Virus record (IMG/VR): IMGVR_UViG_3300031730_000020
Location: 1-23,633 of that record
Source: a virus
DNA: 23,633 nt
Reading direction: 5' to 3' (one strand)
A model generated the notes under the pieces. That model ran no database searches, was not told the DNA's origin, and worked only from the letters and a program-made list of their open reading frames with translations. A program made the translations under genes and the position numbers. Shown piece after piece: positions 84 to 19,071 of the stretch (positions are counted from its first letter, which is position 1; every line of letters starts with the position of its first letter).

Positions 84-488
84 ATGGAAAAGCGCCCGCG
101 CGGCCGCCCCGCATTCAAACCGACCCCTCATCAACGTGCCACCGTTGCCATCGCGGCCGGCGGCGGAATGCCACTCAACGAGATCGCGATGGGTCTCGGA
201 ATCACCCGGGAAACCCTGCACAAGCACTTCGAGGTCGAACTCTCGACGGGCGCGCATGCGAAACGCCTCGAGGTGATCCGCGCGATGCATGCCGCGGCGA
301 AGCGGGGCAATGTCGCCGCGGCGAAGGCATACCTCCTGCTCGAGCCGGCATCCGCCGCGCCGCCGCTGCCAATGCCGACGCTGGAGCCGAAACCCGAGAA
401 GGAAGAGCCGGTCGGCAAGAAGCAACAGGCTAACCTCGACGCCGTCGACGCCGCCAAGGATACCGGCTGGGAGGGCATCTTGCAGTGA
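84..488 (+). CDS. terS: Small terminase subunit (putative)
   Basis: Probable DNA-recognition subunit of the packaging motor; it would bind the viral pac or cos site and hand DNA to the large subunit. The protein is about 134 residues. It has a basic N-terminus (RPRGRP at residues 4-9), a helix-turn-helix-like stretch at about residues 31-50 (LNEIAMGLGI followed by TRETLHKHF), a helical segment containing the AAAKRGNVAAAKAY stretch, and a charged, proline-rich tail. The size and HTH layout resemble small terminases of proteobacterial siphoviruses. The call rests largely on position, because it directly precedes the large terminase with a GTGA overlap. ATG at 84 is preferred over an in-frame TTG at 78; neither has a strong Shine-Dalgarno sequence. 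The 83 bases upstream hold only a 12-codon reading frame (43-81) and no clear promoter. Confidence 0.75.
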   Translation: MEKRPRGRPAFKPTPHQRATVAIAAGGGMPLNEIAMGLGITRETLHKHFEVELSTGAHAKRLEVIRAMHAAAKRGNVAAAKAYLLLEPASAAPPLPMPTLEPKPEKEEPVGKKQQANLDAVDAAKDTGWEGILQ

Positions 489-3226
489 GCTGGGATCTAA
501 GCTGTCCGGACTGGGAGGAGAGGCTCCGCGAGGGCCGCAGCCTGGTTCCGGACCTGCCGCTGGATCTCGTCGAGGGAGATCGCGCGGTCGCCGCGTTCAA
601 TCGGCTGCGCCTGGCCGACGTTCAGGGAACGCCAACGATGGCCGAGGCAGGCGGGGACTGGTTCCGCGACATCATCCGGGCATTGTTCGGATCGCTCGAC
701 CGAGCGACCGGCATCCGAATGATCCGCGAGGTGTTCCTGCTGACGCCGAAGAAGTCTGCGAAGGCTCTTGCGTTGGACACGCTCATCGCGACCCCCGAGG
801 GGTTCACCGCGATGGGTGACCTTGCGATCGGCGACCTTGTGATTGACCTGAACGGCGTGCCCACGAAGGTGCTCGCAAAGAGCGAAGTGTTCGTCGACCA
901 TGAATGCTTCGAGGTGGAATTCAGCACGGGCGAGCGCGTGGTTTGTGATGCTGGGCATCTCTGGATCACCGACGCCCATCGTGACCGGGATCTTCAGGAG
1001 CGCCAGCTGCGGCGCACGCCGGCCCCCTCGGTGAAGACGACAGCCGAAATCGCACGCAGCTTGAAGGTGCCATCGGGGCGTTACACGATCAACAATCACA
1101 GAACGTCGCTCCCTGGACCGCTGAAGCTGCCGGAGGCGAAATTGTCGATCCCGCCCTATGTGCTTGGCGCCTGGCTTGGCGACGGTCATACCTGGGGCGC
1201 CGTGATATCCGCCGGTGCGATCGACGCTCATCACATGGTGTCGCAGTTGCAAGCGGCCGGCCATCCTGCCGTCATCAAGGGATTCGACAAGCGTTCTGGT
1301 GTAGCGCGAATTTCGATCGCTCACGATGGACCTAGAAATGCCAAGCTGCCCTACCGCTTCAGGACTGCCGCGGTCGAACTCGGCGTGCTTGGAAACAAGC
1401 ACATCCCACGGCGCTACCTCCGTGCATCGCATCAACAACGACTGGAGCTTCTGCGCGGGCTGATGGACACCGATGGGACGATAGCGAAAGGAGGCCAGGC
1501 AAGCTATTCCACGACGACACAGGCGTTGAAAGACGACGTGATTGAGCTCGTGAACTCATTTGGGATGAAGGCAACGGTCGGAGAGCAGCGCGCGATGCTC
1601 CGCGGAAAGGATTGCGGGCCGTGCTGGACTGTCAGGTTCTGGCCATTCGACTCCATTTCGGTGTTCACGTTGCCGAGGAAACTGGGGCGTCAACGCGCGA
1701 GCATTGCTCGGAATAGCGCCCGATCCACCACTCGTCAGATAGTCTCGGTGACGCCGGTCGAGAGCGTGCCCACGCAGTGCATTTCTGTGGCCAGCGAGTC
1801 GAAACAGTTCCTGATTAGCAGGTCGCTCATCCCGACCCACAATACGTCGCAGGGCGCGCTGCTGATGCTGGTGGCGCTACTGCTAAACAAGCGGCCGCGC
1901 GGCGCGTTCATCATGACGGCGCCCTATCAGGACGTGGCTGAACTCGCTTTCGCGGCCGTCGCCGGCGCGATCGCCCTCGACCCGGTGCTGGAGAAGAAGC
2001 TCTGGGTGCGGGAGCACAAAAAGACCATCGTGCATCGGCAGACGAAGGCCGAACTCGAGATCATGACCTTCGATCCCGGCATCCTGACGGGCCAGAAGGT
2101 CGCCGGCGCGCTGATCGACGAGCTGCATGTGGTCGGCAAGATGGCCAAGTCGCCCAGCGCGATCCGGCAACTGCGCGGCGGTATGTTGCCGTTCCCCGAG
2201 GCCTTCCTCGCCTTCATCACGACGCAGAGCGAGGAGCCGCCGACGGGCATCTTCCATTCGGAGCTGCAGAAGGCGCGTGCCATCCGCGACGGAACACGCG
2301 AGGGCGCGATGTTGCCGATCCTCTACGAGTTCCCGGAGAAGATGCAGCGGTCCGACGAATGGCGTGATCCGGCGCACTGGCACATGGTGACGCCGAACAT
2401 CGGCCGCTCTATCTCGATTCCGCGCCTGGTCGAGGAGTATAAGGTCGCCGAGGCTACGTCGAAGGAGGAACTCGCCGCGTGGAGCTCCCAGCACTTGAAC
2501 ATCGAGATGGGGATCGCGCTGCACTCCGACCGCTGGGAGGGCATCGACTTCTGGGTGAAGTCGACCGCCAAGGGCGGCCTCACGCTGAAGAACGTGCTCG
2601 AGCGATCCGAGGTCATCACGATCGGCATCGATGGTGGCGGCCTCAACGACCTGTTGGGCCTATCGGTGCTCGGGCGCGAGAGCGACAAAGCTGATTGGCT
2701 TCACTGGGGCCACGCCTGGGCGCACCCAATCGTCTTCGAGCGCCACAAAAGCAATTCCGCGCTCTATCGCGACTTCGAATCCGACGGCGACCTGACCATC
2801 GTCAAAGACATCGGGGAGGATATGACTGGCGTCGCCGACGTCGTCGAGGAATGCGAGAAATCCGGGCTCCTGGACAACATCGGTGTCGACCAGGCGGGTA
2901 TCGGCTCCCTTGTGGACGCGATCACGGGCCGCGGTTTCGCACCCGAGCGAATCGTCGGTATCCCGCAAGGCTGGAAGCTTCAGGGGGCGATCCTGACGAT
3001 GGAACGGAAGCTCGCGTCTGGTGAATTCCACCATGCCGGGTCTAGAATGATGGCCTGGACGGTCGGAAACGCGAAGAGTGAGCCGCGCGGTAATGCGGTG
3101 ATGATCACGAAGCAAGGCTCAGGACGCGCGAAGATCGACCCGCTGATGGCCCTATTCGATTCGGTTGCGCTGATGGGGATGAACCCCAAACCGCGCAAGC
3201 GAAAGTACCAAGCCTTTTTTCTCTGA
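485..3226 (+). CDS. terL: Large terminase subunit (TerL) interrupted by an intein
   Basis: ATP-driven packaging motor and headful/cos nuclease that pumps DNA through the portal. The precursor is 913 residues, of which 360 (94-453) are an intein, leaving a 553-residue mature TerL, a usual size for HK97-like terminases. The Walker A motif is the deviant phage form PKKSAK-TS, split directly after its lysine (K93). Walker B is ALIDE at about 542-546 (D545, E546). The C-terminal RNase H-like nuclease starts with IGIDGGG (D716), and a late acidic motif KIDPLMALFD lies near the C-terminus. The start is GTG at 485, overlapping the TerS stop. Removal of the intein is needed to restore the ATP-binding loop. 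Identification as TerL is firm; splicing activity is inferred from motifs. Confidence 0.95.
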   Translation: MSWDLSCPDWEERLREGRSLVPDLPLDLVEGDRAVAAFNRLRLADVQGTPTMAEAGGDWFRDIIRALFGSLDRATGIRMIREVFLLTPKKSAKALALDTLIATPEGFTAMGDLAIGDLVIDLNGVPTKVLAKSEVFVDHECFEVEFSTGERVVCDAGHLWITDAHRDRDLQERQLRRTPAPSVKTTAEIARSLKVPSGRYTINNHRTSLPGPLKLPEAKLSIPPYVLGAWLGDGHTWGAVISAGAIDAHHMVSQLQAAGHPAVIKGFDKRSGVARISIAHDGPRNAKLPYRFRTAAVELGVLGNKHIPRRYLRASHQQRLELLRGLMDTDGTIAKGGQASYSTTTQALKDDVIELVNSFGMKATVGEQRAMLRGKDCGPCWTVRFWPFDSISVFTLPRKLGRQRASIARNSARSTTRQIVSVTPVESVPTQCISVASESKQFLISRSLIPTHNTSQGALLMLVALLLNKRPRGAFIMTAPYQDVAELAFAAVAGAIALDPVLEKKLWVREHKKTIVHRQTKAELEIMTFDPGILTGQKVAGALIDELHVVGKMAKSPSAIRQLRGGMLPFPEAFLAFITTQSEEPPTGIFHSELQKARAIRDGTREGAMLPILYEFPEKMQRSDEWRDPAHWHMVTPNIGRSISIPRLVEEYKVAEATSKEELAAWSSQHLNIEMGIALHSDRWEGIDFWVKSTAKGGLTLKNVLERSEVITIGIDGGGLNDLLGLSVLGRESDKADWLHWGHAWAHPIVFERHKSNSALYRDFESDGDLTIVKDIGEDMTGVADVVEECEKSGLLDNIGVDQAGIGSLVDAITGRGFAPERIVGIPQGWKLQGAILTMERKLASGEFHHAGSRMMAWTVGNAKSEPRGNAVMITKQGSGRAKIDPLMALFDSVALMGMNPKPRKRKYQAFFL
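764..1843 (+). mobile_element. Class 3-type intein with LAGLIDADG homing endonuclease, inside terL
   Basis: A 360-residue in-frame protein-splicing element at TerL residues 94-453. It begins with ALALDT (Ala at position 1 instead of Cys or Ser) followed by the typical block A text TPEGFTAMGDLAIGD. It ends THN, followed by extein Thr. Block B reads GERVVCDAGHLWIT with Trp at block position 12 (TerL W160). Block F has Cys at position 4 (C432, in TQCISV), and Thr precedes the terminal His-Asn (T451). This W-C-T set with a non-nucleophilic first residue defines class 3 inteins, in which the block F Cys starts splicing. Two dodecapeptide endonuclease motifs, LGAWLGDG (227-234) and LLRGLMDTDG (322-331), look intact. 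The host site is the Walker A loop, a typical conserved insertion point. Confidence 0.93.
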
Positions 3227-3316
3227 TTCGAAGCACCAGGTACCGCGCCCGGAGCCCCTGTTGACCCTTTCCACACGCCATGCTGATGCCTGGCGCTCAC
3301 GCCCAGGATCACTTCG

Positions 3317-3841
3317 ATGCCCATGCCCAACTCGAACGTCTATACCGACATCGTCGGGACGGGCTTGACTCTCATCGAGAGCGAGGATGGCGGCGCGTTT
3401 CTGATCGATACCTGCAATCGGGCGCTCGCAGAGGGGCATTGCTGGGGGCTGCACGAGCACGGCTATGCCGATGCGAGATGGCGCGAAGGCAAAGAGCAAG
3501 GCGGCAAGATGCGCCATGTCTATCTGCATAGGCTCATCTGCCGGCCGACTGCGGATCGCCCTGACGTTGATCACAAGAATCGCTCAAACTGGGATTGCCG
3601 CGAGGAGAACCTGCGGGCCTGCACGGTTTCGCAGAATCAGTGCAACCAGAAGATCCGTTCGGACAATGCCTCCGGTGCCAAAGGCGTCGGACTACATCGG
3701 GCTACCGGAAAATTCCGCGCTCGTGTGAAAATCCGCGGCGTGGAAAGACATCTCGGCCTTTTCGTCACGCTCGCCGAAGCTGACGCGACCGTGCGCGCCG
3801 CGCGGAAAGAGTTCCATCAGGAGTTTGCACGCCATGAGTGA
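3317..3841 (+). CDS. Free-standing HNH endonuclease with AP2-like DNA-binding domain
   Basis: A 174-residue putative homing endonuclease. Its HNH core is at about residues 83-112, with DVDHKN (D85, H86, N88) and the downstream ENLRACT and NQCNQK segments typical of the HNH_3 family. The C-terminal 55-60 residues (GAKGV, FRARVKIRG, HLGLF, A-DATVRAA) look like an AP2/ERF-type DNA-binding domain, a common pairing in phage HNH genes. AGGA at 3305-3308 precedes ATG 3317 by 8 bases. The gene follows terL after a 90-base gap with no clear promoter, and its last 8 bases overlap the start of the protease-capsid gene. It is probably a selfish element that cuts phage DNA lacking the insertion; a packaging role, as shown for some HNH proteins next to terminases, is also possible. 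Confidence 0.88.
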   Translation: MPMPNSNVYTDIVGTGLTLIESEDGGAFLIDTCNRALAEGHCWGLHEHGYADARWREGKEQGGKMRHVYLHRLICRPTADRPDVDHKNRSNWDCREENLRACTVSQNQCNQKIRSDNASGAKGVGLHRATGKFRARVKIRGVERHLGLFVTLAEADATVRAARKEFHQEFARHE

Positions 3842-5852
3842 AAAGAATCTGAAGCGGGCTTACTGCACCTTTGAGGTGAAGGCAATCTCTGAGGAGGGTG
3901 GAAAACGAACCTTCACCGGTATCGCCTCCACTCCATCTACCGACCTGATGGACGATATCGTCGTCCCGACTGGCGCCGTCTACTCGTTGCCTCTATGTCT
4001 ACTTTGGCAGCATGACTCGAGTGATCCGATCGGCTGGGTCACGGCCGCGCGCGTCACGGCGAAGGGCATTGAGGTCGACTGCGAAGTGCACAATGAGCAG
4101 GAGCCAGGCCCCCTGCAGGACTGCCTCAACAAATACTGGCAGATGCTCAAGGCGAAGCTCGTCCGCGGCCTGTCGATCGGCTTCAACGCCATCGAATACG
4201 CTCGCATCGAGGGTTCGTACGGCATCAAGTACCTGGCCTGGAACTGGCTCGAGCTGTCGTGCGTCACGATCGCCGCCAACCAGGACGCCTCGATAACCAG
4301 CATCAAGTCGATCGATATGGAGCACCGCCGCGCCGCGTCAGGCGCAGGTGTCCGGGTCGTTCGTCTCGGGCAGCCCGCCAGCCAGCGATCTGCCACCCCA
4401 CGACCCGGCGCCACGGGAAATCAACCATCGAAAGGAATCCCCGTGAAAATCGCTGAACAAATTGCCGCCTTCCGCGCGAAGCGCCTCGTCGCCCAGCAAC
4501 GCCAGGACGCCATCATGGAGAAGAGCAGCGCCGAAGGCACCACGCTCGACGCCGCCGAGAAGACCGAATACGACGAGCTCGTTTCGGAGATCAAGGAAAT
4601 CGACGACCACGTCGTGCGTCTGACGGCGCATGAAGCCAGCATGGTTGCCCGCGCCGCGCCCGTGATCGGCTCCGGCCAGCAACGCGAAGTCGGGGAGACC
4701 GACGGAGTCCAGCTGCGCGGCGGCGTCATCAGCGTCCGCCGCAACGTCGAGAAGGGCATCGCCATGTCGCGCTACGCCATTGCGTTGGGCCGCGCGAAGG
4801 GCAATATCATGCATGCAGCCGAGATCGCCAAGCAATGGAATGACTCCACGCCGGAAGTCGCGCTCTTCATCGACCAGATTGTGAAGCACGGCTCGGTCGA
4901 TGCGCTCATGAAGACGGCCGTCGCCGCCGGCACGACATCGGACGCCACCTGGGCGGGCCCGCTGGTCTACGCGCAGAACATGGTGACCGAGTTCATCGAG
5001 TTCCTGCGCCCGATGACCATCATCGGCCGGCTGCCTGCACTGCGCCACGTGCCGTTCAACATCCGGATCCCGCGCCAGACGGCCGGCACCTCGGGCACCT
5101 TCGTGGGTGAAGGCCTGCCGACGCCGGTCAACAAGGCTTCGTTCGACGCGCTGACGCTCACTTGGGCGAAGGCCTCGACGATCGCCGTCCTGACGCAGGA
5201 ACTGGTAATGATGAGCAACCCGGCGGCCGAGAGCCTGGTGCGCAACGATCTGGCGGCGGGCATCGCGGCTTACCTCGACAAGCGCTTCATCGATCCGAGC
5301 TATGCGGGCGTCGCCAATGTCTCGCCGGCTTCGATCTCGAATGGCGTGACCTCGAGGCAGGCGAGCGGCGCAACGCTCGCGGCGATCGACCAGGACGTGG
5401 CCTACCTGCTGTCGCAGGTGGCGAGCGCGGAAATCTCGCTCTCGTCGGCGATCTGGCTGATGTCGCCTTCGCTGGCCATCCAGCTCGGCACGATCCGCAC
5501 CGCCTTCGGCGATCTCGCATTCCCGGACCTCGGCGTCATGGGCGGTACGTTCAAGGGCTTGCCGGCGATCACGTCCAACAGCATCGTCTCCAGCGGTTCG
5601 CCGGGCGAGCAGCAACTGTTCCTTGTCGTGCAGAACGAAGTGCTGCTGGCCGACGACGGCCAGATGCTCCTGGACATGAGCACGGAAGCCTCGGTGCAGA
5701 TGAACGACGCGCCGAGCGCCGGCGCGCAGTCGCTGGTCAGCCTGTGGCAGAACGGCATGGTCGGCCTGAAGTGCGATCGCTGGATCAACTGGGCGAAGCG
5801 TCGCTCGGCGGCGGTGCAATACATCGAGGCTGCCCAGCGCTACGGCTCCTGA
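3834..5852 (+). CDS. Prohead protease fused to HK97-type major capsid protein
   Basis: A single 672-residue reading frame joining two normally separate proteins. Residues 1 to about 165 match the HK97 prohead protease family (peptidase U35/S78): FTGIASTP, the catalytic His in LWQHDSSDP (H60), and the catalytic Ser in VRGLSIGF (S114). A low-complexity linker (about 166-203, rich in Ala, Arg, Pro, Ser) leads into a major capsid protein. That part has a charged, helical delta-domain-like start (AEQIAAFRAKR through EIKEIDDHVVRL) and then the HK97 fold (GPLVYAQNMVTEFIEFLRP, RIPRQTAGTSG, FVGEGLPTP, and a C-terminal NEVLLADDGQ). ATG 3834 with AGGAG at 3819-3823 is preferred over TTG 3825. The protease would cleave delta domains after assembly. 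No stop separates the halves, but a strong internal start exists at 4443. Confidence 0.92.
   Translation: MSEKNLKRAYCTFEVKAISEEGGKRTFTGIASTPSTDLMDDIVVPTGAVYSLPLCLLWQHDSSDPIGWVTAARVTAKGIEVDCEVHNEQEPGPLQDCLNKYWQMLKAKLVRGLSIGFNAIEYARIEGSYGIKYLAWNWLELSCVTIAANQDASITSIKSIDMEHRRAASGAGVRVVRLGQPASQRSATPRPGATGNQPSKGIPVKIAEQIAAFRAKRLVAQQRQDAIMEKSSAEGTTLDAAEKTEYDELVSEIKEIDDHVVRLTAHEASMVARAAPVIGSGQQREVGETDGVQLRGGVISVRRNVEKGIAMSRYAIALGRAKGNIMHAAEIAKQWNDSTPEVALFIDQIVKHGSVDALMKTAVAAGTTSDATWAGPLVYAQNMVTEFIEFLRPMTIIGRLPALRHVPFNIRIPRQTAGTSGTFVGEGLPTPVNKASFDALTLTWAKASTIAVLTQELVMMSNPAAESLVRNDLAAGIAAYLDKRFIDPSYAGVANVSPASISNGVTSRQASGATLAAIDQDVAYLLSQVASAEISLSSAIWLMSPSLAIQLGTIRTAFGDLAFPDLGVMGGTFKGLPAITSNSIVSSGSPGEQQLFLVVQNEVLLADDGQMLLDMSTEASVQMNDAPSAGAQSLVSLWQNGMVGLKCDRWINWAKRRSAAVQYIEAAQRYGS
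4431..4436 (+). promoter_or_regulatory. Internal Shine-Dalgarno for separate capsid protein
   Basis: AAAGGA lies six bases before GTG 4443, inside the linker between the protease and capsid domains. The upstream fusion start has only AGGAG at a longer spacing of 10 bases. This supports internal initiation of the major capsid protein. Confidence 0.6.
4443..5852 (+). CDS. Major capsid protein from internal in-frame start (alternative product)
   Basis: Within the protease-capsid reading frame, GTG at 4443 is preceded by AAAGGA at 4431-4436, a better Shine-Dalgarno than those of most genes in the window. The 469-residue product would begin MKIAEQIAAFRAKR, which looks like the natural N-terminus of stand-alone HK97-type capsid proteins in proteobacterial phages. 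This could supply the hundreds of capsid subunits needed, while the full-length fusion supplies a few proteases. The start is inferred from sequence only; the alternative is that all capsid protein is made as the fusion and then cleaved. Confidence 0.6.
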   Translation: MKIAEQIAAFRAKRLVAQQRQDAIMEKSSAEGTTLDAAEKTEYDELVSEIKEIDDHVVRLTAHEASMVARAAPVIGSGQQREVGETDGVQLRGGVISVRRNVEKGIAMSRYAIALGRAKGNIMHAAEIAKQWNDSTPEVALFIDQIVKHGSVDALMKTAVAAGTTSDATWAGPLVYAQNMVTEFIEFLRPMTIIGRLPALRHVPFNIRIPRQTAGTSGTFVGEGLPTPVNKASFDALTLTWAKASTIAVLTQELVMMSNPAAESLVRNDLAAGIAAYLDKRFIDPSYAGVANVSPASISNGVTSRQASGATLAAIDQDVAYLLSQVASAEISLSSAIWLMSPSLAIQLGTIRTAFGDLAFPDLGVMGGTFKGLPAITSNSIVSSGSPGEQQLFLVVQNEVLLADDGQMLLDMSTEASVQMNDAPSAGAQSLVSLWQNGMVGLKCDRWINWAKRRSAAVQYIEAAQRYGS

Positions 5853-6333: not shown

Positions 6334-7740
6334 ATGCGGATCTTCGGTCTGGAGATCAGCTGGCGCGCCAAGGGCGCCGTCCCGGCCGGAACCGGGATGC
6401 CTATCACCTCGGGCGGCTGGGGATGGCTTCGCGAGACGATCTCCGGCGCCTGGCAGCGGGGCGTCACCGTCGACGGCCACGAGTCGGTGCTCGCCTTCGC
6501 CGCCGTCTTCGCGTGCATCTCGCGCATCACCTCCGACATCTCGAAGTTGCGCGTCAAGCTCGTGCAACAGGACGGCGGGATCTGGGATGAGGTCACTGCG
6601 CAATCGCCCTTCTGGACGACGTTGCGCAAGCCGAACAGCTACCAGACCCGCATTCAGTTCATGGCCGCATGGGTCATTTCGAAACTGGTCTACGGCAACA
6701 CCTACGTGCTCAAGATCCGCAAAGACGCCCGCGGCATGGTGACCGAGCTGCACGTGCTGCATCCTCGCCTCGTGACGCCTCTCATCGCGCCAGACGGTTC
6801 GGTCTACTACCGGCTCGGCGCGGACCTGCTCGCAGAGAAGCCGCTCGGCGCCACGGTGCCGGCGAGCGAGATCATCCATGACCGCGGCATGACACTGTTC
6901 CACCCACTGGTCGGCGTCTCTCCGATCTTCGCCTGCGGCGCCGCGGCCACGCAGGGCAATCGTATCCAGGGCAACAGCGCCAAGTTCTTCGAGAACATGA
7001 GCCGGCCCTCCGGCATGCTCACCGCGCCCAGCACCATCACCGATGAGACGGCCGGCCGCCTGAAGCGCGAATGGGAGGAGAACTTCTCGGGCTCGAATAT
7101 CGGGCGCATGGCCGTCCTCGGTGACGGCCTGACCTACGAGGCGATGACGATCAATGCCGACGACGCGCAACTGATCGAACAACTGAAATGGACCGGCGAG
7201 GACGTTGCCCGCGCCTTCGGCGTGCCGGGCTACAAGATCGGCGTCGGCCCGATCCCGACGAACAACAACGTCGAGGCGCTTGAGCAGCAGTACTACTCGG
7301 GAGCGTTGCAGCCCCTCATCGAAAGCATCGAGATCCTACTGGACGAGGGCCTCGAGATTTCCAGCGGAATGGGCACGGAATTCGACCTCGACGGCCTGCT
7401 CCGCATGGACACCGCGACCCTGTACGAATCGCTCGGCAAGGTCGTGACGACCGGCATCATGGCGCCGAACGAGGCCCGCCAGAAGATCAACCTCGGCCCG
7501 GTTCCCGGCGGCGCGACGCCCTACATGCAGCAGCAGCAATACAGCTTGGCCGCATTGGATGAGCGAGATAAAGACAAGCCATTCTCGAAGGCTGCTGCTG
7601 GCGCGTCTGGATCAACAAATTCGCCGCCCCCCACACCAGCGAATGATGACGGAGTCGACCCCGCTGCGAAATCATTTTTGCTCGAGCTCATGGTCGCTGA
7701 CCAACTGCGTAAAGAACTCGCAGTCGTCGAAGTTTTATGA
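6334..7740 (+). CDS. Portal protein (HK97 family)
   Basis: A 468-residue phage portal protein, which forms the dodecameric ring at the packaging vertex, docks the terminase and later the connector. Family features are visible in order: FAAVFACISRITSDISKLRV, FMAAWVISKLVYGNTYVLKIR, an LHVLHPRLVTP segment, FHPLVGVSP, SRPSGMLTAP, the stem/clip region DVARAFGVPGYKIG, NNVEALEQQYYSGALQPL, and a C-terminal NEARQKINLGPVPGGATPYMQQQQYSL. The tail past residue 410 is low-complexity and acidic, as is usual. ATG directly abuts the preceding TAA, implying translational coupling. Its stop overlaps the next HNH gene in ATGA. Confidence 0.96.
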   Translation: MRIFGLEISWRAKGAVPAGTGMPITSGGWGWLRETISGAWQRGVTVDGHESVLAFAAVFACISRITSDISKLRVKLVQQDGGIWDEVTAQSPFWTTLRKPNSYQTRIQFMAAWVISKLVYGNTYVLKIRKDARGMVTELHVLHPRLVTPLIAPDGSVYYRLGADLLAEKPLGATVPASEIIHDRGMTLFHPLVGVSPIFACGAAATQGNRIQGNSAKFFENMSRPSGMLTAPSTITDETAGRLKREWEENFSGSNIGRMAVLGDGLTYEAMTINADDAQLIEQLKWTGEDVARAFGVPGYKIGVGPIPTNNNVEALEQQYYSGALQPLIESIEILLDEGLEISSGMGTEFDLDGLLRMDTATLYESLGKVVTTGIMAPNEARQKINLGPVPGGATPYMQQQQYSLAALDERDKDKPFSKAAAGASGSTNSPPPTPANDDGVDPAAKSFLLELMVADQLRKELAVVEVL

Positions 7741-8291
7741 CCTCCGCCGAAATCCAGTGCCGTCAATGCGAGGTCGAAAAGACCTTGGCAGACTTCTTCC
7801 CGAGTTGCAAAACCCAATGTCGCCAATGCCGCGCTGCATATGACGCCCCTTGCCGCGCTAAAAGGTTGGAATATCTCGCCGCATGGCGGAAACTCCATCC
7901 CGAAGCTGCCAGCGAGTGGTATCTGAATAACCGGGAACGCAAAGCAGCCTACAACGCCGCTTGGTACGCGGAGAACAAGGAATCCGAGGCCGCAAGATAC
8001 GCAGAATGGGCCAGAGCCAATTCTGAAAAGAGAATCGCTGCGATGGCGGCGCGAAAAGCGCGCAAACTGAAGGCTACGGTACCCTGGGGGAATGCGAAAT
8101 TGATCGATGACTTCTACACCCTGGCGGCGAAGCTCACAGAAGAAACTGGCATTCGCCATGAAGTTGATCACATCGTCCCTCTGCAGGGGAAGTCGGTTTG
8201 TGGTCTTCATTGGGAGGGCAATCTTCAGGTGCTCACGAAGACGGATAACCTGAAGAAATCGAACAAGATTTGGGAAGGAATGCCGGCATGA
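7737..8291 (+). CDS. Free-standing HNH endonuclease (second copy)
   Basis: A 184-residue HNH protein. The N-terminus carries paired Cys motifs (CRQC at residues 8-11 and again near 27-30), probably a zinc ribbon. A central, helical, Ala/Arg/Glu-rich stretch with repeated aromatic spacing ([20 protein letters not shown]) follows. The catalytic core [10 protein letters not shown] (D144, H145) is followed by [13 protein letters not shown] (H158, N162) and NLKKSNKIW. It starts in an ATGA overlap with portal and ends in an ATGA overlap with the fibre gene, so insertion kept translational coupling. It resembles the third HNH gene at 18454. Probably a mobile homing endonuclease. Confidence 0.9.
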
Positions 8292-9874
8292 AAAGCGAAG
8301 ACATCACGGCAGTCATGCGAGGCGTCGCTACGGTTGTCAAGGAACAGATCGGCGCATTGGCCGCATCGCTTTCCGAACGGTTCAAGCATCTCGAGTCGCA
8401 AATCAATGCAGCACGCGCGATTGCTGAAAAGGCAGAGCGCGGGGTACCGGGCGCGAGCGCCTACGATCTTGCCGTTGCCGCCGGCTACCGGGGCACCGAG
8501 CCGGAATGGATCGCATCTCTGCGCGGCGTCGATGGCGAATCGATTGGCAGCGATGCATTCGAAGAGCGCTTCATAGCGATCGAGCAGCGCCTGCAGGAAG
8601 TTCCGGCGCCGATTTCTGCCGAAGCCATGACGGATATGATCGTCGGCAGAGTCGATCACGTGCTGGGCGAGGCAATCGAGCCCCGGCTGGTCGGTCTCGC
8701 TGAGCGCCTGGTCGTCGTCGAAGAACGCGCGCCGATCGCCGGCGCCCCGGGCGAGCGTGGCGCACCCGGTGAGCGTGGCGAGCCGGGCCCGCACGGTGAG
8801 CCGGGCGAGCGTGGGCTGGACGCCGAGCCCGCCGTCGGCCTGCCGGGCGAGCGCGGCGAACCTGGCCCGCGGGGAGATCCGGGCGAACCCGGGGAGCGCG
8901 GCATCGAAGGCGCGCCCGGCAAGGACGTCGACGAGGCGGCGCTGCAGGCGCGCATCGATGCCGCGGTTGAACTGAGGATCGACGCCGCGGTCGAGAAGGC
9001 GGTCGCCGCGGCCCTGGCTGCGGTCGCGATGCCGAAGGACGGCATCGACGGCAAGGATGGTCTGGACGGCAAGGGCGTCGACGAATTGGAGCTTCAGCGT
9101 CAAGTCGACGCCGCCGTCGACAAGACGCTGACGGCAGCGGTCGCATCGATCCCGGTTCCCAAGGATGGCATCGACGGCAAGGACGGAATCGATGGCGTCG
9201 ATGGAAAGGACGTCGACGATACATTGCTGCAGTCGCGTATCGACGATGCTGCAGCGAAGGCTGCGGCGGTGGCCATTGGCGCGATCCCGGTGCCGAGGGA
9301 CGGTGTCGATGGCAAGGATGGGAAGAACGGCGAAGACGGCCGGGACGCGCTGCAGATCGACGTGCTCGACATGATCGACGAGGAGCGATCCTACCCCCGC
9401 GGCACATTCGCGCGCTGGCGCGGCGGCGTCATCCGTTCCTTCCGCGCGACCGATCCACCCATCGAAGGCGAGCCGATCGAAAAGGCCGGTTGGGCCTGCT
9501 TCGTCGACGGCGTTCACGAGCTCACGCCGGAGGCGGCGGGCGACCAGCGCGGGTTCACGCTGCGCGCGTCTACCACCAGCGGCAAGGTTCGCGAGGCCAA
9601 GATCTGCATGCCGACCCCGATCTATCACGATGTCTGGACGGAGCGCGAGTATGAACTGGGCGACATGGTCACCTACGATGGCTCGATCTGGCATTGCAAG
9701 CGGCCGACGAAAGCGAAGCCCGGCACCCAGACCAGCGAACCGGACTGGACGCTGTGCGTTAAGAGGGGTCGCGCCGGCAAGGATGGTGAGAAGGGCACCA
9801 AGGGCGACCGCGGTACCGACGGCCGCCACGGCCGCGACTTAACGCAGCTCCGATTCGACGGGTCGAAGACCTGA
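8288..9874 (+). CDS. Collagen-like virion fibre protein with carbohydrate-binding-like C-terminus
   Basis: A 528-residue structural protein. Residues 1-45 look helical. About residues 55-80 hold the phage-fibre adaptor motif [23 protein letters not shown] collagen Gly-X-Y block at about 152-213 (GERGEPGP type) is followed by three helical segments rich in Asp/Ala (for example [15 protein letters not shown]), separated by short Gly-Asp-Gly collagen stretches (DGIDGKDG). The C-terminal half has a phage domain starting [12 protein letters not shown], then a CBM5/12-like module (W450, [22 protein letters not shown]), and a last collagen stretch ([13 protein letters not shown]). ATG 8288 with GGGAAGGA upstream is chosen over TTG 8270. 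It probably forms a trimeric fibre; whether on head, neck or tail is not visible. Its place between portal and connector is unusual. Confidence 0.85.
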
Positions 9875-17601: not shown

Positions 17602-18066
17602 ATGGCCACGACACGCAGCGTTCAGGTTCAGGGCCTCAGCCAGTTGGGGCAAACGCTGAAGACGCTCGGCGCCGACATGCAGGCGCGCGTCGCGCGTCGC
17701 GCCACCAATGCTGCCGCGCAGGTCGTCAAAAAGGCCGTGATCATCGCCGTCAACGATCCCCGCGCCGACAAGCCCTATACGGTCGACGGCGAACTCGTTT
17801 TCCCAGGCAACATCAGCCGGAACGTGATCGTCAAGCGCATCCCACCCGGCGAGACCGATCTCACCTCGGAGCACATTGTCACAGTGCGCGGGAAGGCCGC
17901 CCACGGCTACGCATCGCGGATTGCTTCGCTGAAGGAGTGGGGCACCGTGAAAGAGGCGCCGACGCCGTTCATGACGCCGGGCTTCGAAAGCAGCAAGGGC
18001 GAGGCGCTGGAGGCAATGGCCACTTCGCTGCGCGGTGATATCGCCGACAGCGCGAAAAAGGCCTGA
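17602..18066 (+). CDS. HK97 gp10-like tail-attachment protein
   Basis: A 154-residue protein of the HK97 gp10 family, placed between head closure and tail completion as usual. It shows VQVQGLSQLGQTLKTLGADM, a helix of paired Ala/Arg (RRATNAAAQVVKKAV), then VRGKAAHGYASRIASLKEWGTVKEAPTPFMTPGFES, the typical end-motif with PFM-PGF. AAGGG at 17591-17595 precedes ATG 17602. It is likely part of the neck that joins head and tail. Confidence 0.9.
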   Translation: MATTRSVQVQGLSQLGQTLKTLGADMQARVARRATNAAAQVVKKAVIIAVNDPRADKPYTVDGELVFPGNISRNVIVKRIPPGETDLTSEHIVTVRGKAAHGYASRIASLKEWGTVKEAPTPFMTPGFESSKGEALEAMATSLRGDIADSAKKA

Positions 18067-18070
18067 ATTC

Positions 18071-18457
18071 ATGACCGCCCCGCTGTCCGTTCCCCAGGCC
18101 ATCTTCGCAGCGCTGCGCGGACTCGTCAGCGATCGCGTCTACCCGAACGAGTTCCCGCAGGGCGACCCGTTGCCGGCCTGGCCCGCCATTCGCTACACCA
18201 TCGTCATCAACGACCCGTCGCCCACGCTCTGCGGTACCGGCGACGAGGATACCGACGACGTCATCGTGTTCGTCGACGTGGTCGCGACGACCTATCCCGC
18301 GATGCGCGCGCTCAAAGCGCAGGTGATCACCGCGCTGCAGTCGACGGACCCGCCGTGCGCGCGCGAAAGCGGTGGCCAGGAGACCCCCGACGGCGAGACG
18401 CGGACGCAGCGCGCCACGATGACCTACCGGTTCCAGCAGTCGTCGAACGACTCATGA
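18071..18457 (+). CDS. Tail completion protein (DUF3168-like)
   Basis: A 128-residue protein similar in layout to the phage DUF3168/tail terminator group, which caps the tail tube. It opens PQAIFAALRGLVSDRVYPNEFPQGDPLPAWPAIRYTIV, the usual 'Y-P-P-x-I-Y' start, then DDVIVFVDVVATTYPAMRALKAQVITAL. ATG 18071 is preferred over an in-frame start 36 bases upstream inside the gp10 gene. The stop overlaps the third HNH gene in ATGA. Sequence similarity is judged by eye, but the place in the module supports it. Confidence 0.85.
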   Translation: MTAPLSVPQAIFAALRGLVSDRVYPNEFPQGDPLPAWPAIRYTIVINDPSPTLCGTGDEDTDDVIVFVDVVATTYPAMRALKAQVITALQSTDPPCARESGGQETPDGETRTQRATMTYRFQQSSNDS

Positions 18458-19071
18458 ATTCCACCAAGATCTGCTGTCGATGCAAATTCTCTCTTCCGCT
18501 GGAGGCCTTCCGTGCGAGGTCGTCCGCGGCCGACGGGCTTCCTGGCGAATGCATTCCATGCATCAAAGAGTTCAATCGTGAATATCACGAGCGAAATAGG
18601 GAAAAGCTCTGCGCCCGCGCGCGCCAGCGAAGCGCGCAACGCCGCGCATTGCCTGGAATGGCAGAGAAAAATCGCGCCGATGCGCTGCGTTGGTATCACG
18701 ATCATCCGGCGAACGCCGCTCGCGCTAAAAAGCGCGTGGCCGATTGGAACTCGGCGAATTCGGATCGGAAGAAGGCTGCAGATCGCGCTTGGCGAGAACT
18801 ACATCGCGCGCGGACGAACGCGCATGTCAAGGCCTACAAAGCGAGGAAGATCAATGCCACGCCCGCATGGGCGAACCTGTTTTTCTTGGAGGAAGCATAT
18901 GATCTCGCAGTCTTGCGAAAGGCCGCCACAGGGATTGACTGGCATGTCGACCATATCGCTCCTCTGAACGGAAAGACTGTGTGTGGTCTCCATGTAGAAC
19001 ATAATATTCAGGTGATCCCGAAGCGCCTGAACCTGCAAAAAGGCAACCGTCATTGGCCTGGGATGCCATGA
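18454..19071 (+). CDS. Free-standing HNH endonuclease (third copy)
   Basis: A 205-residue HNH protein. Its N-terminal zinc-ribbon has CCRC and a second pair CIPC (about residues 7-10 and 32-35). A long basic, Ala/Arg/Asn-rich helical section follows, then the core HVDHIAPLNGK (D166, H167), VCGLHVEHNIQVI (H180, N184) and NLQKGNRHW. It shares the core, order and the final GMP residues with the copy at 7737. Base composition looks more AT-rich than the neighbouring structural genes, consistent with recent transfer. It separates tail completion from the tail tube gene, which normally adjoin. Probably a homing endonuclease. Confidence 0.9.
   Translation: MNSTKICCRCKFSLPLEAFRARSSAADGLPGECIPCIKEFNREYHERNREKLCARARQRSAQRRALPGMAEKNRADALRWYHDHPANAARAKKRVADWNSANSDRKKAADRAWRELHRARTNAHVKAYKARKINATPAWANLFFLEEAYDLAVLRKAATGIDWHVDHIAPLNGKTVCGLHVEHNIQVIPKRLNLQKGNRHWPGMP

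Follow-up and report, generated by a model that had tools for sequence, protein, structure and literature searches.

The interrupted terminase gene and its empty allele

The window, by which we mean the whole 23,633-nucleotide stretch of DNA under analysis, is a 23.6 kb fragment of a metagenomic virus record. Near its start, behind an ORF at 78-488 whose place in the gene order makes it the probable small terminase subunit, a GTG-initiated ORF on the + strand (485-3226) encodes an HK97-type large terminase (TerL) that matches PHROG TerL families and Pfam TerL_nuclease. The protein falls into three segments. The N-extein (485..763, +; 93 aa), itself matching PHROG TerL families, ends in the Walker A segment LLTPKKSAK. 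An insert of 360 aa follows (764..1843, +), running from Ala1 to His359-Asn360, and its signature residues, its position in trees, its fold and an empty site identify it as a class 3 intein. The C-extein (1844..3226, +; 460 aa) opens with Thr+1, which completes Walker A, and carries Walker B (ALIDELH) and a nuclease domain (PF20441 TerL_nuclease). The insert spans precursor residues 94-453 (ALALDT...PTHN) between the flanks LLTPKKSAK and TSQGALL, and it enters directly after the Walker A lysine (LLTPKKSAK|T). An earlier note, made from the sequence alone, had described an in-frame insert of 360 residues after this lysine, with W160, C432 and T451 as key positions, and each of these is confirmed in ORF 485-3226.

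A closely related phage sequence carries the same gene without the insert. L110, the nearest TerL found, is intein-free and 90% identical to the window TerL. Its 553 aa align without a gap to the 553 joined extein residues, 498 of them identical (81 of 93 in the N-extein and 417 of 460 in the C-extein). At the DNA level the two loci are colinear at 83-87% save exactly 764-1843. L110 is a natural empty allele of the insertion site, shorter by exactly 1080 bases, and it bears out the proposed Walker A insertion. Joining the window flanks gives an uninterrupted Walker A (PKKSAK|TSQG) that aligns gap-free with six intein-free phage TerLs, for example that of Pan4 (PKKNAK|TTSS). Pfam TerL_ATPase is matched in the L110 protein but finds no match in the window precursor, so the intein splits the TerL ATPase domain. 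The match to L110 stays level to either side of the insert (23-27 of 30 bases), with no conspicuous coconversion tract.

Class 3 signature, phylogeny and fold

The insert carries every class 3 feature that is legible from sequence, following the defining features listed in PMC5222942: Ala1, His65, Trp67 (B:12), Cys339 (F:4), Thr358 (G:5), His359, Asn360 and Thr+1. In precursor numbering, W67, C339 and T358 are W160, C432 and T451. We read relatives from 80 IMG/VR loci and a set of named phages. The W, C and T residues are present in 93 of 93 sequences readable end to end, the window included and the relatives about 32-59% identical to its intein, a pattern far beyond chance; all 93 also have Ser or Thr at +1. 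Of 90 distinct inteins aligned, 87 bear the triplet, and in these H65, W67, C339, T358 and N360 are invariant. The remaining three, which the same search matched weakly, belong to class 1 and have Cys1, Leu at 67 and Gly at 339.

These residues sit at defined points of the splicing domain. Block B ends in His65 (B:10)-Leu66-Trp67 (B:12) at 956..964 (+), with H65 and W67 conserved in 87/87 distinct relatives and Leu at 67 in the class 1 controls. The predicted first nucleophile, block F Cys339, lies at 1778..1780 (+); it too is invariant (87/87), and the class 1 controls have Gly. Block G, Thr358-His359-Asn360 (1835..1843, +), is kept as THN across the 87 relatives save for one Arg at 359. Position 1, where class 3 has no required Cys, Ser or Thr, is Ala in 69 of 93 sequences. 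The +1 residue is Ser or Thr at all 82 distinct insertion sites and Thr in the window, and 69 of these 82 insertion points come after a Lys, most of them Walker A-like.

Trees and structure agree with the signature. Class 1 and class 3 separate at 100% SH-aLRT on splicing-domain columns with residue 1 and the triplet removed, and again at 100% SH-aLRT in the full-length intein tree, in trees that set the class 3 inteins against only three class 1 controls. The earlier note had proposed building such a tree with known class 3 members; the window falls inside class 3, with the class 1 inteins outside at full support. The closest PDB sequences (E down to 1.5e-20) are the mycobacterial DnaB inteins 6rix, 6riy and 6bs8, which are class 3 (PMC7664689), and 6bs8 is titled as such. 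An AlphaFold model of the intein (pLDDT 93.6) superposes on 6bs8, from Msm DnaB, over 127 of 127 residues (1.4 Å, Z 20.9, 40% identity) and on full-length PI-SceI (Z 29.3, 338 residues). Among solved mini-inteins, the mycobacterial DnaB inteins also give the closest match by fold. The predicted model thus matches the Hint fold of solved class 3 inteins. Pfam and NCBIfam do not classify the window intein, because their splicing-domain matches stay below threshold: only a sub-threshold Hint_2 and an unrelated intein-bearing Tes model appeared. The class 3 assignment that the earlier note had made therefore holds by signature residues, trees and the fold match to class 3 structures. A class 1 reading, which requires Cys, Ser or Thr at position 1, was ruled out by Ala1, the triplet, the tree and the fold.

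Endonuclease, predicted splicing and horizontal movement

The intein also contains an apparently intact homing endonuclease domain. Pfam LAGLIDADG_3 scores 30.4 bits against a cutoff of 22.5. LAGLIDADG motif 1 (block C, YVLGAWLGDG; 1157..1186, +) holds Asp140, which is conserved in 88 of 90 inteins. Motif 2 (block E, LLRGLMDTDG; 1448..1477, +) holds Asp235 and Asp237, both present in 90 of 90. Between them lies block D (KHIPRRYL; 1397..1420, +), with K212, P215 and Y218 invariant. Both motifs and block D retain their conserved acidic and lysine residues, and the two-motif endonuclease is likely active. With high confidence, we read 764-1843 as a class 3 intein of full length, probably active and equipped with a LAGLIDADG homing endonuclease, set in the Walker A loop of an HK97-type TerL.

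Known class 3 chemistry (PMC5222942, PMC7664689) indicates how the protein could mature. Chemistry, splicing and cleavage are taken here from the family; the anatomy, signature, fold, empty site and horizontal movement come directly from the analysis. After translation, Cys339 of block F, aided by His65, Thr358 and Trp67, would attack the Lys-Ala junction to form a branched thioester. The chain would then pass to Thr+1, and Asn360 would cyclise. The exteins would join as ...PKKSAK-T..., restoring the ATP-binding loop. Since this chemistry would restore the P-loop, packaging activity should depend on splicing. The endonuclease, for its part, would cut intein-free terL alleles at the conserved stretch, and repair would copy the intein in.

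The history of the intein differs from that of its host gene. The inteins of the window and of two IMG/VR loci, L002 and L003, form one clade (100% SH-aLRT) and occupy the same TerL codon, while their host TerLs are scattered among intein-free TerLs. Joining the three host TerLs in one group is rejected (p-AU 1e-68), and at least five intein gains or losses are needed on the TerL tree. Because these nearest kin share a codon while their TerLs do not group together, the intein moves horizontally. Its GC3 is 0.72, against 0.83 for the extein, and lies below that of the surrounding structural genes. Together, the clade and host mismatch, the empty site and the GC3 difference mark the intein as a mobile element, one that reaches a single fixed codon by horizontal transfer. 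A broader scenario is doubtful, and we put it forward only as a conjecture: at least two separate class 3 lineages repeatedly invaded one TerL family at an identical Walker A codon, and here the intein moves with an adjacent HNH gene, likewise missing from L110, the two perhaps cooperating as homing elements.

Three other readings of the insert are far less probable. In a class 2 (KlbA-like) intein the +1 residue would attack the N-terminal junction directly and Cys339 would be incidental. Ala at position 1 and a nucleophile at +1 fit this chemistry, but the class 3 triplet is complete and does not vary among the relatives, the +1 residue is Thr, and the intein clusters by sequence and fold with biochemically proven class 3 DnaB inteins. 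A class 2 reading was rejected on residue 1, triplet, tree and fold, and we hold it to be very improbable. Just as improbable is an assembly chimera, in which an intein from another phage was joined into the window terL. The contig is metagenomic and its nearest relative, L110, lacks the insert; yet the junctions coincide precisely with the codon that L002, L003 and many others use, the insert is in frame with 360 codons intact, and the inteins found include no near copy (best 59%).

Marginally less remote is a decayed, splicing-dead intein, in a phage that either has no functional terminase or relies on a second TerL copy, for which a fragment such as the window leaves room elsewhere in the genome. 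Against decay, all 360 codons are open and the catalytic residues of both domains are all present. Between the window and L002/L003, the rate of differences at third codon positions is about double that at first and second ones, as expected under purifying selection. The window also holds a single TerL in an otherwise normal head module.

Known relatives and neighbouring genes

The insertion site is an established one for inteins. TerL1-a inteins split the TerL P-loop where its invariant Lys meets Thr (Kelley et al. 2016, PMC5050341), and alignment to intein-free TerLs places the window insertion at this site a of TerL1 (Walker A Lys | Ser/Thr). Among the other TerL inteins of that study, splicing was shown for sites b, c, e, f and g, and cutting of empty alleles for b and c. 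Phaux (L097), a cluster E Kostyavirus mycobacteriophage, shows site a and the WCT triplet in its sequence, and from its cluster and site we infer that it is one of the TerL1-a phages of PMC5050341. The earlier note had left open whether a class 3 intein is already known at this TerL site; TerL1-a and Phaux answer that it is. Nothing closer than PMC5050341 was found in the literature on metagenomic surveys of TerL inteins. The note's description of class 3 as the rarest class is misleading where phages are concerned: relatives of the window intein occur in 732 of 50,697 phage records, a count in which sampled relatives at about 32% identity or above are all WCT and some of the weakest matches are class 1.

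Comparison with individual systems places the window intein among its kin. The TerL1-a inteins of cluster E mycobacteriophages such as Phaux share with it the protein, the Walker A Lys/Thr point (RKNGK|T), WCT, THN and a LAGLIDADG domain, but the Phaux intein is only 36% identical, occupies a separate class 3 branch and resides in an unrelated phage (TerL about 20% identical). The L002 and L003 inteins, in the same TerL family, are 59% identical to the window intein, whereas their TerL exteins are 43-49% identical and not sister to the window TerL. The Msm DnaB-1 and Mch DnaB-1 mini-inteins (6bs8, 6rix, 6riy) share its splicing domain and catalytic residues but sit in DnaB helicase and lack an endonuclease domain. 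Baka TerL1-b is likewise a WCT class 3 intein with LAGLIDADG in the TerL P-loop, but it lies one residue later (RQNGKG|S) and is about 32% identical; it splices and cuts empty terL (PMC5050341). Class 3 WCT inteins also occur in Cas4/RecB-like exonuclease, DnaB and other helicases of unrelated phages, jumbo phages included (L098, Mangeria; L091, Rousseau; L103-L106).

Site and class are already known, and the window is a clear, intact new example of them, not a new kind of element. It leaves general knowledge of inteins unchanged. It does provide a clean example of a class 3 TerL intein, likely active, from beyond the well-studied mycobacteriophages, and the pair of window and L110, with 90% TerL identity, is a convenient system in which to test how such an intein splices and homes in the packaging motor. 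It lends further support to phages as a large class 3 intein reservoir and to P-loops as a favoured site.

After terL come an HNH gene, a fused head protease/major capsid protein and the portal. The free-standing HNH endonuclease (ORF 3317-3841; PHROG 99/4578) occupies an insert at 3313-3849 that separates terL from the capsid gene. Next to the intein, this is a second insertion of a mobile endonuclease, and the stop of the HNH gene overlaps the capsid start. This insert is cleanly absent from L110, where window positions 3312/3850 correspond to 2225/2228. Two endonuclease VII-like HNH genes stand further on (7737-8291 and 18454-19071), 41% identical over 126 aligned positions. The ATG of each overlaps the stop of the preceding gene (the portal and 18035-18457, respectively) and GC3 is low (0.61), all of which suggests that one element spread to two places in the same phage. 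A search of six related records for kin of the 7737-8291 gene gave no match.

One ORF before the portal gene (3834-5852) fuses a head maturation protease (S78) to an HK97-type major capsid protein, and L110 has the same fusion. After the portal and HNH genes lies a collagen-like ORF with GXY repeats (8270-9874), whose C-terminal half matches PHROG families labelled portal protein (phrog_1289); this half is perhaps a tail-fibre-like domain that PHROG mislabels. The intein-free TerLs of three prophages (L117, Rhizobium; L118, Gemmobacter; L119, a Rhodobacteraceae MAG) are 43-46% identical to the window TerL, a weak hint that the phage may infect Alphaproteobacteria.
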